A stretch of 64,000 nt of DNA from Richelia sinica FACHB-800. GTDB lineage: Bacteria > Cyanobacteriota > Cyanobacteriia > Cyanobacteriales > Nostocaceae. The stretch spans positions 24,056 to 88,055 of the forward strand of contig NZ_JACJTT010000023.1 in NCBI RefSeq assembly GCF_014698825.1, in the 5' to 3' direction. This document shows, piece after piece, positions 13,187-18,290 of this stretch. The notes beneath the pieces were generated by a model. The model worked only from the letters and a program-made list of their open reading frames with translations, was not told where the DNA came from and made no database searches. How positions within the stretch are numbered: position 1 is the first letter of the stretch; every line of letters starts with the position of its first letter. Position numbers and translations under genes: made by a program.

Positions 13187-13624
13187 TCACGCAGAGGCGC
13201 AGAGGCGCAGAGAGAATGATTGAGAATGAGATTTCGGGAGTTATCGTTGATGTGGCTTACAAGGTTCACACTACTTTGGGGCCTGGTTTGTTGGAGTCGG
13301 TATACGAAACGGTGATGGATGTTGAGTTAAGAAGGCGAAAATTGGAGGTGAAAAGACAGGTCATCATTCCCATCATTTATGAGGGTGTGGTTTTGGAGGA
13401 GGGTTTCCGTGCTGATTTGATAGTTGAAGACAAAGTGATTGTCGAACTAAAATCAGTGGAAACTGTCCATCCTGTACATCAAAAGCAACTATTAACCTAT
13501 CTACGCCTTGCCGATAAGAAAATCGGACTACTAATCAACTTTAACGTCCCACTCATCAAAGACGGCATCACACGCATCGTTAACAAACTCTAAAAACTCT
13601 CCGCGCCTCTGCGCCTCTGCGTGA
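13187..13624 (+). mobile_element. GxxExxY element bounded by 28-bp inverted repeats
   Basis: A 438-bp unit. The left end 13187-13214 begins TCACGCAGAGGCGCAGAGG; the right end 13597-13624 is its reverse complement with one mismatch in 28 (A at 13210-equivalent position versus G). The only gene inside (13216-13593) starts two bases after the left repeat and stops four bases before the right one, so nothing else is carried. Single related repeats occur at 17376-17405 and, in altered form, at 18331-18390. No clear target-site duplication is visible at the outer edges. It looks like a minimal mobile or repeat-amplified unit; calling it mobile is inference. Confidence 0.6.
13216..13593 (+). CDS. 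GxxExxY family protein, PD-(D/E)XK-like fold
   Basis: 125 residues matching the GxxExxY family: the name motif is GPGLLESVYE (residues about 22-31). Downstream, FRADLIVEDKVIVELKS (about 68-84) has the Asp-x-(8 to 10)-Glu-Leu-Lys arrangement of PD-(D/E)XK nucleases, followed by HPVHQKQLLTYLRLADKKIG and LINFNVPLIKDGI. All these conserved residues are present, so the gene looks intact. The biological role is not established. ATG 13216 is directly next to the left inverted repeat; no separate ribosome binding site stands out except the purines of the repeat itself (agagagaa). Confidence 0.9.
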   Translation: MIENEISGVIVDVAYKVHTTLGPGLLESVYETVMDVELRRRKLEVKRQVIIPIIYEGVVLEEGFRADLIVEDKVIVELKSVETVHPVHQKQLLTYLRLADKKIGLLINFNVPLIKDGITRIVNKL

Positions 13625-15040: not shown

Positions 15041-16339
15041 GTGGGTAATTCTGATACTAAATGGTCTGCTGATGGTAAAGAAATTCCTTTTGTAGAACAG
15101 CATACAAAAACAAAACATCTACTTACCGAACAATATGTAACTGATTTAATTTATACGCTGTACGGTAGTGGGCAACGTGGAGTTACAAATTTCACTATTA
15201 TTGATGGTTTTTGTGGTGGAGGTATTTACAATGATAAAGACTCAGATAATATCTGGTTTGGTTCTCCTATTCGTTTGATTAAAGCTGTTCAAGAAGGTTA
15301 TTTCAAATCAAAAAGAACTTATCCTTTAAATGTTAAGTTTATATTTATAGATAAGAAAAAAGACCATTTAACATGTTTAAAAAATATTGCTATGTCTCAG
15401 GGAGAATTGGACAATTTATCAGACGAAAAACAGCATATTTTTAAGACAGAATTTGGTGATTTGATAATAGAGTGTGAATTTATTAATGATGAATTTGAAA
15501 ATAAAGTAAACTATTGTGTTTTGCAATCTGAAAACAGGAAGGGGCATTCTTTGTTTATTCTTGATCCCTATGGTTGGTCTGATGTTTCGATGGAGAGTTT
15601 TAGAAAAATCAATAGTCTAAAAAAATCAGAAATAATTTATACCTTTATGGTTGATTTTATCAAAAGATTTTTTTATGATCCAAAATGGCAAGCAAGAGAA
15701 ACTTTTACAAAAGTATTAGAAACAGATGGTTATTTTAATCTTGATCATTTTCAAATGCTAGATACTTTTGGAGAACAAGCAGAATTTAGAAATGATTTTA
15801 TGAAATTATTAAGGGATAAAGGTAATGCAAGCAAAATCATTACATTTGCTATGATGCCTAATAATAATGATAGAGTATTATATTACTTATTTCATATTTG
15901 TAGTCATTTAAGAGCCTTAGAGGTAATGAAAGATGGAAGTTGGAAGTTTAATAATTTAAACTATCAATATCACTATGATATTTATGGATTTGGGTTTAAA
16001 GCCGCTTTGTTTTATGAAGATAATCAATTAGAGTTAAAATTGGATATTAACCAAGATAGTCAACAATCTTGTATAACTAGATTAAGCAAGGATTTAGATA
16101 AAATTATACAAAATTCTCCAGATGGAATTACCTTTAAAGAATTATGTAATAAAACAATGGAACTCAATCCAGCAACTAGACAACAATATTTTGAATATCT
16201 CAATTTATTAAGAGATGCTAAAGAAATAGAAGTAATTAGGAAGGGTAAAAAAACAGATAGTACAAATTTACAAAATGAAGATATAATTAGAAGACCATCA
16301 CAACGTACCTTATTTAATTTACTTAATTACATATCATAA
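15041..16339 (+). CDS. tcmP: Three-Cys-motif partner protein TcmP
   Basis: 432-residue protein starting with GTG 15041. The N-terminal half (KTKHLLTEQYVTDLIYTLYG; TNFTIIDGFCGGGIYND; WFGSPIRLIKAV; VKFIFIDKKKDHL; HSLFILDPYGWSDVS) is the TcmP pattern. A glycine-rich loop after a DGF strand and an acidic FIDK strand suggest a SAM-methyltransferase-like Rossmann fold, with a DPYG in the place of a catalytic DPxx motif. The C-terminal 90 residues resemble a winged-helix segment. It is followed 40 bases later by a radical-SAM gene, the association that gave the family its name. Codon use is strikingly A+T-rich compared with neighbours, suggesting transfer. The biochemical role is unknown. Confidence 0.82.
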   Translation: MGNSDTKWSADGKEIPFVEQHTKTKHLLTEQYVTDLIYTLYGSGQRGVTNFTIIDGFCGGGIYNDKDSDNIWFGSPIRLIKAVQEGYFKSKRTYPLNVKFIFIDKKKDHLTCLKNIAMSQGELDNLSDEKQHIFKTEFGDLIIECEFINDEFENKVNYCVLQSENRKGHSLFILDPYGWSDVSMESFRKINSLKKSEIIYTFMVDFIKRFFYDPKWQARETFTKVLETDGYFNLDHFQMLDTFGEQAEFRNDFMKLLRDKGNASKIITFAMMPNNNDRVLYYLFHICSHLRALEVMKDGSWKFNNLNYQYHYDIYGFGFKAALFYEDNQLELKLDINQDSQQSCITRLSKDLDKIIQNSPDGITFKELCNKTMELNPATRQQYFEYLNLLRDAKEIEVIRKGKKTDSTNLQNEDIIRRPSQRTLFNLLNYIS

Positions 16340-16379
16340 ATTATTTTATACACAAAGATCAAAATATTATAATTCAATT

Positions 16380-17324
16380 ATGATTACTGGAACTGAAAAA
16401 ATAATAAATCCTCTGCAAAAGAGTGCATTAAACAAGAAAGGCTTATGTGACTATGTGATTAATATTGCTTCCGGTTGTTTGCATGGATGTACATTTTGCT
16501 ACGTTCCTTCAACACCAAGTATTAGAACTCAACAAAAAAAATTACATCAAAAAGGTGTGGAAAATCCTCAGCTAGACTGGGGTAAGTATTTATTCATGAG
16601 GGAAGAAGTTCCTGGAAAATTAGATCAAATATTAAAAAGAAAAAGAAAGTGGGAAGAAACACCTTCTGGTAAAGGAGTAATTTTGCTTTGCTCTGGAACA
16701 GATCCATACCAAAATAAAAAAACAGCAGAAATTACTCGTAAAACATTAGAAGTTCTAATTGAACATAAGAAAAAAGTAAGAATTTTAACTCGTGGACTGT
16801 TATGGCAAAATGATTTGGACATTTTGACTCATCCAAACATATCTCTAGGGATGAGTATTCCTTGTATAGATGATGAATTACTAAAAAGAATTGAACCACA
16901 AGCGCCTTTATCATCTGATAGATACAAAGCATTGCAAAAAGGGTATGAAGCCAAATGTCGTTTATATGTAGCTATGGCTCCAACTCCTCCTATGATGACT
17001 TTAGAAAATTTTAAGTTTAATTTAGAACAATTTATGAAAATTAACCCAGAAGTAATCTTTTGGGAACCCATTAATGCTAGAGGAACAAATGGTAAAAGAA
17101 TGTTATCCGCAGGATTAGAGTTTGCAAAATCAATTATGAGTAGGCAATCTTGGGCAGATACCTTTATTCAACAATGGAATGATATTGAAATAGCTGCTCA
17201 ACAGGTAGGATGCGTGGATAAACTACACATTTGGCCAGATCCTTCTTTAAAAGGTTTTGTTAGTAAAGAAAAAATTGATAATTGGTTATATAGACCAACT
17301 ATAGAGAAATGGAATAGCAACTAG
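16380..17324 (+). CDS. Radical SAM protein paired with TcmP (SPL-like)
   Basis: 314-residue radical SAM enzyme. The Fe-S motif lies in CDYVINIASGCLHGCTFCY (CxxxCxxC, about residues 38-45), followed by VPSTPSIRT. Next come GVILLCSGTDPYQNKKTAEI, KVRILTRG and SLGMSIPCIDDELLKRIEPQ, an order seen in spore photoproduct lyase-like and Rv2578c-like radical SAM proteins. All three cluster cysteines are present, so it should bind a 4Fe-4S cluster and SAM. It shares strand, close spacing and A+T-rich composition with tcmP, so the two are probably one operon acting together, perhaps on nucleic acid. The substrate is not known. Confidence 0.82.
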   Translation: MITGTEKIINPLQKSALNKKGLCDYVINIASGCLHGCTFCYVPSTPSIRTQQKKLHQKGVENPQLDWGKYLFMREEVPGKLDQILKRKRKWEETPSGKGVILLCSGTDPYQNKKTAEITRKTLEVLIEHKKKVRILTRGLLWQNDLDILTHPNISLGMSIPCIDDELLKRIEPQAPLSSDRYKALQKGYEAKCRLYVAMAPTPPMMTLENFKFNLEQFMKINPEVIFWEPINARGTNGKRMLSAGLEFAKSIMSRQSWADTFIQQWNDIEIAAQQVGCVDKLHIWPDPSLKGFVSKEKIDNWLYRPTIEKWNSN

Positions 17325-17375: not shown

Positions 17376-17405
17376 CTCTCCGCGCCTCTGCGTCTCTGCG
17401 TGAGG
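17376..17405 (+). repeat. Solo copy of the GxxExxY-element end repeat
   Basis: Matches the right-hand end of the 13187-13624 element: CTCTCCGCGCCTCTGCG followed by TCTCTGCGTGA, with one change (C to T) in 28 bases. There is no second repeat or GxxExxY gene nearby, so it is a single end, left by loss of an element or spread on its own. It lies about 50 bases after the radical SAM gene. Confidence 0.8.
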
Positions 17406-17817: not shown

Positions 17818-18021
17818 ATGCAAGCAGATAAATATCCCTTTGCTCAAGAATTGATTACTGATATTGACGGTAATATCAGAAAAGTAGTTATGGATTTTCA
17901 AGAATACCTACGGTTGCTAGAAGCACTGGAAGATGAAGGACTTATTCTAGCAATGAAAGAAGTAGAAAATGAAACCCCATTAAATTTTAATGAAGCATTA
18001 GCAGAATTAGAACAAGAGTGA
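17818..18021 (+). CDS. Antitoxin of a RelE-type toxin-antitoxin pair
   Basis: 67-residue acidic protein (KYPFAQELITDIDGNIRKVV, MDFQEYLRLLEALEDEGLIL, then AMKEVENETPLNFNEALAEL). The pattern of a short beta strand, an LLEALEDEGL helix and an ETPLxxxEAL tail is that of the small cyanobacterial antitoxins found upstream of RelE/ParE toxins, where the C-terminal helix wraps the toxin. Its stop codon TGA (18019-18021) overlaps a GTG that would start the downstream toxin. No good Shine-Dalgarno sequence is seen before ATG 17818. Confidence 0.72.
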   Translation: MQADKYPFAQELITDIDGNIRKVVMDFQEYLRLLEALEDEGLILAMKEVENETPLNFNEALAELEQE

Positions 18022-18053
18022 ATACCTAATATCTACCCAGTTTTATTAAAGAC

Positions 18054-18290
18054 TTGAAACCACTCAAAAGTACACCTTACTATGAGTCTATTAAGAGATT
18101 TGCTTTTGAAGAAGTAATTGAAATATCAACTCTTGAAGAAATAACCAATCTCAAAAAGCTTCAAGGATATGATAACGCTTATCGAATTCGCATAGGTGAT
18201 TATCGTCTTGGTGTTATTTTTGATGGTGAAACATTAATTTTTGAAAGAGTTTTACACCGTAAAGAAATATATCGCTATTTTCCTAAATAG
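18054..18290 (+). CDS. RelE/ParE-type toxin, probably N-terminally damaged
   Basis: 78 codons from TTG 18054 give KPLKSTPYYESIKRFAFEEV, NLKKLQGYDNAYRIRIGDYR and LIFERVLHRKEIYRYFPK, the RelE/ParE mRNA-interferase fold with the conserved YRIRIGDYR and HRKEIYRYFP. Homologues have extra N-terminal residues. The upstream frame does encode a fitting piece, YLPSFIKDL, but a TAA at 18027-18029 interrupts it four codons after GTG 18018, which overlaps the antitoxin stop. So the natural start seems to be cut off by a nonsense change, and either TTG 18054 gives a shortened protein or the toxin is dead. Confidence 0.62.
   Translation: MKPLKSTPYYESIKRFAFEEVIEISTLEEITNLKKLQGYDNAYRIRIGDYRLGVIFDGETLIFERVLHRKEIYRYFPK

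Follow-up and report, generated by a model that had tools for sequence, protein, structure and literature searches.

A GxxExxY nuclease gene enclosed by inverted copies of a dispersed repeat: evidence for a probable enzyme/repeat pair in Cyanobacteria and other phyla

How does a short gene come to lie between two near-identical inverted repeats, and do the gene and the repeats belong together? This question is raised by a locus in the window, the whole stretch of 64,000 nucleotides (64 kb) of Richelia sinica FACHB-800 that was analysed. A gene of the GxxExxY family (13216–13593 including the stop codon, forward strand), recognised as an open reading frame with profile matches and predicted to encode a PD-(D/E)XK nuclease of 125 aa, is enclosed by a left arm (13187–13214, forward strand) and a right arm (13597–13624, reverse strand) which is the inverted copy of the left one. 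The arms measure 28 nt each, are separated by 382 nt and are 96% complementary (27/28), which confirms the inverted 28-bp repeats with 27 matches described in an earlier note on this DNA; the spare bases between arms and gene number one (13215) and three (13594–13596), rather than the two and four given there. The left arm consists of three CRCNRAG units (CGCAGAGG CGCAGAGG CGCAGAG) and is dispersed elsewhere in the genome. The flanks that define the site are a gene of the Met_gamma_lyase family (PF06838; 11944–13173, forward strand) on the left and a gene of the FrhB_FdhB family (PF04432/PF04422; 13629–14828, reverse strand) on the right, the latter of which, we assume, may be the cyanobacterial BciB gene. 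The solo end which the note had placed 4–5 kb away is real: a solo arm of the same repeat family lies at 17376–17404 (reverse strand) and is the only further two-unit arm returned by a pattern search of the 64 kb window. The accompanying “split end,” taken as the stretch near 11.9 kb, matches a fragment only and is not an arm.

The protein encoded between the arms scores 147.8 bits against TIGR04256 (cut-off 35) and 142.5 bits against PF13366 (PDDEXK_3; cut-off 22). These are its only domain matches, and no known transposase domain was found in it by the profile search. A nuclease-like fold is predicted with confidence, and this fold together with the D...E-x-K residues places the protein among the PD-(D/E)XK nucleases. 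The candidate catalytic residues are E27, D67, E77-x-K79 and Q91xxxY95 (own numbering of the window protein) and are unchanged across 63 GxxExxY sequences; the Asp...Glu-Leu-Lys triad previously pointed out in the gene product is present as D67...E77-x-K79. The gene is single copy in its own genome. Its dN/dS lies between 0.015 and 0.17 in six of seven measured pairs, which indicates purifying selection in these six, and reaches 0.67 in the seventh; an eighth pair was left out due to unequal length. No described function of the TIGR04256/PF13366 family was found in the sources searched, and none of the PADLOC defence models matches the gene. The window protein is a member of this known family, to which the link with a repeat is added here. 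Two scans of viral contigs yielded no confirmed relative; PMC12085832 lists a GxxExxY gene among those of an algal virus, Chrysochromulina parva virus BQ1.

The arm-gene-arm layout is found far beyond the window. The GxxExxY gene is present in 51 of 80 genomes of the order, the own genome included. The relatives set comprises 90 loci, with ten weak or partial rows left out, and usable flanks are available for 88 of them (L046 and L074 are excluded for flanks that are too short). An inverted repeat with a score of at least 14 spans the gene in 76 of these 88 loci and one of at least 18 in 67, whereas 88 shuffled pairs of flanks reach 13 at most. In a few of these 76 loci (L084, L107, L116, and L117), the inverted repeat is a different one located farther out. 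A second, named set of 80 loci covers Cyanobacteria, Chloroflexi, Planctomycetes, Lentisphaerae, Verrucomicrobia, Bacteroidetes, several proteobacterial groups and others, and is usable for 79 loci (L207 is excluded, its flank being too short). Here, across many phyla, an inverted repeat with an ungapped score of at least 14 brackets the gene in 64 of the 79 loci, as opposed to 2 of 672 control windows of equal geometry which were shifted by at least 800 bp within the same loci. One of the two positive control windows falls on a second pair of inverted arms, in L157; the other lies in L149. Direct repeats scoring at least 14 occur in 14 of the 88 relatives' loci and 8 of the 79 named-set loci, and an inverted repeat at this threshold is lacking around 12 and 15 genes, respectively. 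The two sets have five identical gene sequences in common. A swapped-flank control (mean 11.2, up to 105) was set aside in favor of the shuffles and shifted windows; its value is lost since a single site, occupied by the gene in either orientation, is common to many of the loci.

When a permissive expression is used, unit motifs are found on both sides of the gene in the loci of 127 of 156 distinct proteins, three of which are of the ATCCTG type. The association of repeat and gene is real and general, and wider than first suspected. Most of the GxxExxY loci tested show the layout, which bears out the view that gene and repeats belong together, and although the repeats are common without the gene, the genes have a marked tendency to be flanked by them. 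A separate group of GNGFQE-type GxxExxY proteins (L098, L100, L102, L105, L107, and L113–L119) is without clear CRCNRAG arms; within this group, ATCCTG-type repeats accompany L114, L118, and L119, and CACGGAT-like units occur in a few further loci.

The arms follow a common design, in which CRCNRAG occurs about three times and the sequence differs between genes. The units are spaced by 8 and then 9 bases in 60 of 92 three-unit arms of the named set (cyanobacteria included), and this spacing is likewise the commonest among the relatives. Typical arm classes are CGCAGAG (that of the window), CGCAAAG, CGCCAAG, CACAGAG, CACGAAG, and CGCAGATG. Three example arms fold with −0.2 to −8.2 kcal/mol and are without one overall palindrome. 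Along the protein tree, 44 changes of arm class are counted, as opposed to at least 77 in 200 shuffles (127 labelled proteins, the 29 of 156 distinct proteins without an arm class being left out), a low count for which linkage alone could be sufficient.

Single copies of the repeat are scattered through the genome. A search with up to two mismatches to the arm core yields 54 matches in the own genome, some of them overlapping, as compared to three for the reversed pattern. The 28 repeat loci that were inspected in this genome include the unit's own two arms; among the other 26, an opposite arm is present within 900 bp (strict pattern) in L018 only, and the rest are single arms, commonly TCTCACGCAGAGRCGCAGAGRCGCAGAGAG. 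Such single copies are mostly intergenic: only 3 of 36 repeat sites in G015 fall within ORFs of at least 150 aa, though such ORFs cover 72% of the 20 regions counted, which were picked for containing repeats.

The abundance of these copies follows the gene and its arm class in part, with exceptions. Four arm motifs (A, B, C, and D) were counted in the same 80 genomes, with the arms of the units themselves contained in the totals. Among the 29 genomes without the gene, copy numbers are 0–5 (A), 0–9 (B), and 0–1 (C), as well as 0–3 for motif D, except for G049 (48) and G067 (80). Genomes labelled with a given class exceed other-class genomes in their own motif (p = 1e-4, 3e-3, 1e-3, and 7e-3 for A–D) and also exceed gene-less genomes (p = 2e-8, 2e-7, 3e-8, and 3e-4). 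Nevertheless, only 0–3 copies of the own motif are present in 2 of the 15 genomes labelled B, 4 of the 10 labelled C, and 4 of the 10 labelled D; the class-D label is wider than the counted D motif, as it accepts CACAGAT and CACGGAT units, and this may explain some of the zero counts. Other-class gene-bearing genomes exceed gene-less genomes in motif counts as well and, given this excess and the inclusion of the units' own arms, class specificity is therefore partial. In the two exceptional genomes, G049 and G067, the 48 and 80 repeats of the CGCAGATG class occur without a detected GxxExxY gene, which may have been lost or missed by the assembly, or another enzyme may be involved.

Within the family, repeat density amounts to 8.7 per Mb in 36 gene-bearing genomes vs. 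0.7 per Mb in 12 gene-less genomes. Fewer than ten copies in all are found in 7 of the 51 gene-bearing genomes, and at least ten in 3 of the 28 gene-less genomes on the tree, G049 and G067 among them. The flanking-gene tree offers six independent pairs on supported branches, none of which runs opposite at thresholds of ten or more; on average 0.5 do so at a threshold of six, and six pairs are too few for significance. Outside the order, 50 of the 54 loci L155–L208 were used for a count in other phyla, all of their genomes being gene-bearing: 48 of the 50 genomes hold the general arm pattern and 36 hold at least ten copies, with a maximum of 401 (reversed control ≤6). In the two Chloroflexi genomes that hold loci L159 and L201, namely G084 (contigs C211 and C225) and G124 (contig C1), arms of the same orientation stand in rows, either with different classes about 45–60 bp apart or with one class about 120 bp apart.

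Comparison of related genomes reveals how single repeats turn over. At one and the same intergenic spot, the arm class may differ among five related genera, and a doublet or no arm at all may be present instead. In the sister genera G015 and G035, where 22 and 30 sites were examined, 10 of 14 (G015) and 9 of 16 (G035) alignable sites are common to both. Eleven sites are unshared, and among the nine of these that were inspected, clear indels of 97, 135, and 160 bp extend past the arm; the 135-bp indel is a gene-less inverted doublet which was counted as two sites. The other inspected unshared sites correspond to replacement, point decay or change through another inserted repeat, and neither a clean single-arm insertion nor a target duplication was seen at the inspected sites. 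In the G035 and G025 orthologs of spots W2 and W4 of locus L323, another short GC-rich repeat is inserted inside the arms and splits them, such that small repeats are nested in the arm repeats. A gene-less doublet at about 13680–13735 of L323 (W3) has two units per arm in G015 and three in G035, and one unit was apparently lost from both of its arms jointly.

The extragenic placement of the repeats, seen in regions that were picked for them, would equally be expected of host regulatory or terminator elements, in which case the gene would be a bystander and its arms would serve its own expression. This explanation is very unlikely in view of the link in trans with both the gene and its class, the variation of class between related genera at one and the same intergenic spot and the recurrence of the arm-gene-arm layout in many phyla.

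The window's site itself, between the Met_gamma_lyase-family and FrhB-family genes, was surveyed in 30 loci from the 80 genomes, 23 of which have both neighbors on one locus. Nine loci, including the window, contain the unit in the same orientation, and in three others (G034, G028, and G035) the gene is inverted between the arms. Decayed genes are found in G039 and G029, and no arm is present at four loci (G002, G003, G012, and G013). The remaining five loci (G014, G016, G046, G040, and G026) show what may be a stub, remnants, an incomplete arm or a palindrome lacking the gene, and a tenth gene-less case is the palindrome of G058, a genome without a GxxExxY gene. The comparison of empty and filled sites in close relatives, which the earlier note had called for, hence reveals that the unit is not always in place and that empty loci exist. 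No target duplication was resolved among the 23 loci compared. For G038, a search for an empty site at the level of its genus offered no second genome.

Grouping of loci by their flanks assigns 46 of the 90 relatives' genes to three sites with 15 (the window's site), 6, and 25 loci, and 64 of the 90 to ten flank groups, some of which are perhaps joined by repeats only. Judging from the translations of one locus each, the second site is read as lying beside ureC and the third beside valS. An ordinary transposon, with the arms as terminal inverted repeats, the nuclease as transposase and the solo arms as remains of decayed copies, would account for the inverted ends, the empty sites, the decayed copies and the gene-less arm pairs. 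It would hardly account for a single gene copy next to dozens of repeat matches, nearly all of which are single arms where inspected, nor for the conserved location of half of the genes at three sites (the 46 of 90 above), the purifying selection in six of seven pairs and the lack of a transposase domain, and no target duplication was seen at the window's site or in the G015/G035 comparison. A plain transposon is therefore unsupported, and we regard this origin as unlikely.

Disagreement between genes and flanks may point to a different kind of mobility. At the window's site, one clade with 100/100 support unites the class-A genes from G000, G001, G015, and G038, and this clade is rejected by the flanks (AU test, p = 1e-57, 12 loci). 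Between the sister genera G015 and G035, the flanks are 93.1% identical, the gene is 70.6% identical, and its orientation is opposite. As the flanks are alike and the genes diverged and opposite, whole units were likely swapped. Whole-unit replacement at a fixed site is the simplest reading of the gene and flank sequences; the G015/G035 conflict could possibly also result from differential loss of two old neighboring units. The valS site appears mostly vertical, with a Spearman coefficient of 0.64 between flank and gene identity in 210 pairs (21 loci); the coefficient at the ureC site is 0.21 in 15 pairs. The proposed spread of the unit as one piece is retained in the form of this apparent replacement of whole units at one site, and is given up in the form of a plain transposon.

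Apparent unit replacement at one site, the nuclease fold and the empty sites in relatives are also features that would suit a homing nuclease gene which landed in a pre-existing dispersed repeat of other origin and function. Homing endonuclease genes are free-standing nuclease genes with empty and occupied sites, and their insertion splits the site. In contrast to these, the GxxExxY gene lies between complete inverted arms, and its repeat family is dispersed. A single split site should leave one half on either side, but each of the two inverted arms is complete here, which contradicts a classical homing insertion. Moreover, gene-less genomes are mostly without repeats, and the repeat therefore seemingly does not precede the gene. 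We give this scenario a low probability.

The two arms of a unit do not evolve independently at every site. At the valS site, the arm class differs between genera and the gene stays. Left and right arms of the same locus reach 24.5 vs. 12.9 across loci (p = 5e-5; 24 of 25 loci, L111 being left out due to a contig end), indicating that the two arms change in concert at this site. The nine forward loci of the window's site, a subset chosen post hoc, give 22.6 for own-locus arms vs. 17.9 (p = 0.019). With the inverted loci included, concerted arms are not seen at the window's site (p = 0.54; 12 of 15 loci, three decayed or partial ones being left out), and the 6 loci of the ureC site do not show them either (p = 0.45). 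A first test for concerted evolution was dropped as uninformative, since it compared same-side arms which share a flank.

The layout, the link between gene class and repeat class, the locus states, the disagreement of gene and flank trees and the concerted arms can all be read from the sequences. We consider it rather probable that the GxxExxY unit and its dispersed repeats constitute an enzyme/repeat pair, in which the nuclease would recognize and cut the repeats and repair would copy repeats or units. According to this model, the GxxExxY nuclease would bind the three-unit arm and cut at the arm or beside it, and repair of the break would copy single arms or the whole unit to other places. 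As the arms are inverted and near identical, an incoming unit could be installed in either orientation by repair through them, which would account for the flipped genes, and the tree conflict at the window's site would then reflect unit replacement. To the more far-reaching proposal that GxxExxY genes are the masters of a hitherto unrecognized class of mobile repeats across phyla, with a nuclease that recognizes the three-unit CRCNRAG arm and acts through copying of single arms, conversion of its own two arms by cutting and repair, and unit replacement at fixed sites in either orientation, we assign about even chances.

Among known systems, REP/RAYT appears to come closest in its logic; the two enzymes are unrelated. 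RAYT genes are single copy and flanked by two inverted copies of REP, a short, extragenic and dispersed repeat, and enzyme and repeat types go together (PMC2817692, PMC3116915). The GxxExxY gene is likewise flanked by two inverted repeat copies, in the window as well as in most loci of both sets (76/88 and 64/79), and its repeat is likewise dispersed and extragenic in the genome. However, the enzyme is a PD-(D/E)XK protein (PF13366) and not an HUH tyrosine transposase, and the arms are non-palindromic and made of tandem direct CRCNRAG units, whereas REP is a palindrome headed by GT(A/G)G. Unlike REPINs, which are inverted doublets, almost all of the inspected copies in the own genome stand alone, and doublets are found in other genomes. 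A further difference from REP/RAYT is the apparent exchange of whole GxxExxY units at a site. The units also span a wider range of phyla than the gammaproteobacterial RAYTs treated in PMC2817692.

The link between GxxExxY genes and repeats was not found in the full-text literature as far as its searchable text extends; preprints and most subscription papers lie outside this search, and an earlier description is possible. Searches for repeat strings and for the concept returned RAYT/REP, multicopy repeats of Geobacter and unrelated work, and the link was not found in the text thus retrieved. Publications that mention the family by its name or Pfam number were not seen to connect it with repeats. 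Short dispersed repeats have reportedly been described in Nostoc-type genomes by Elhai and others. The arm repeats resemble these small dispersed repeats of cyanobacteria in being short, dispersed and present in Nostoc-type genomes; the latter are not known to have an associated enzyme.

If the proposed pairing is true, a widespread nuclease family would obtain a role and a likely DNA target, and the origin of intergenic repeats in Cyanobacteria, Chloroflexi, Planctomycetes and others would be explained. The strategy of REP/RAYT would have arisen independently with a different enzyme, and the units would represent a so far unrecognized kind of mobile genetic system. The origin of short dispersed bacterial repeats would thereby become a direct question of binding and cleavage with a known sequence.

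Two further features of the window lie to the right of the unit. At 15041–17324, a gene for a TcmP protein (three-Cys-motif partner) with a GMT-like wHTH domain adjoins a radical-SAM gene, and the TcmP protein matches PDC-M30A, a candidate defence model of PADLOC (E = 1.9e-20). The solo arm at 17376–17404 is located directly downstream of this gene pair. At 17818–18290, a RelB-like antitoxin adjoins a ParE-type toxin match which is slightly below the cut-off, and the two likely form a toxin-antitoxin pair.
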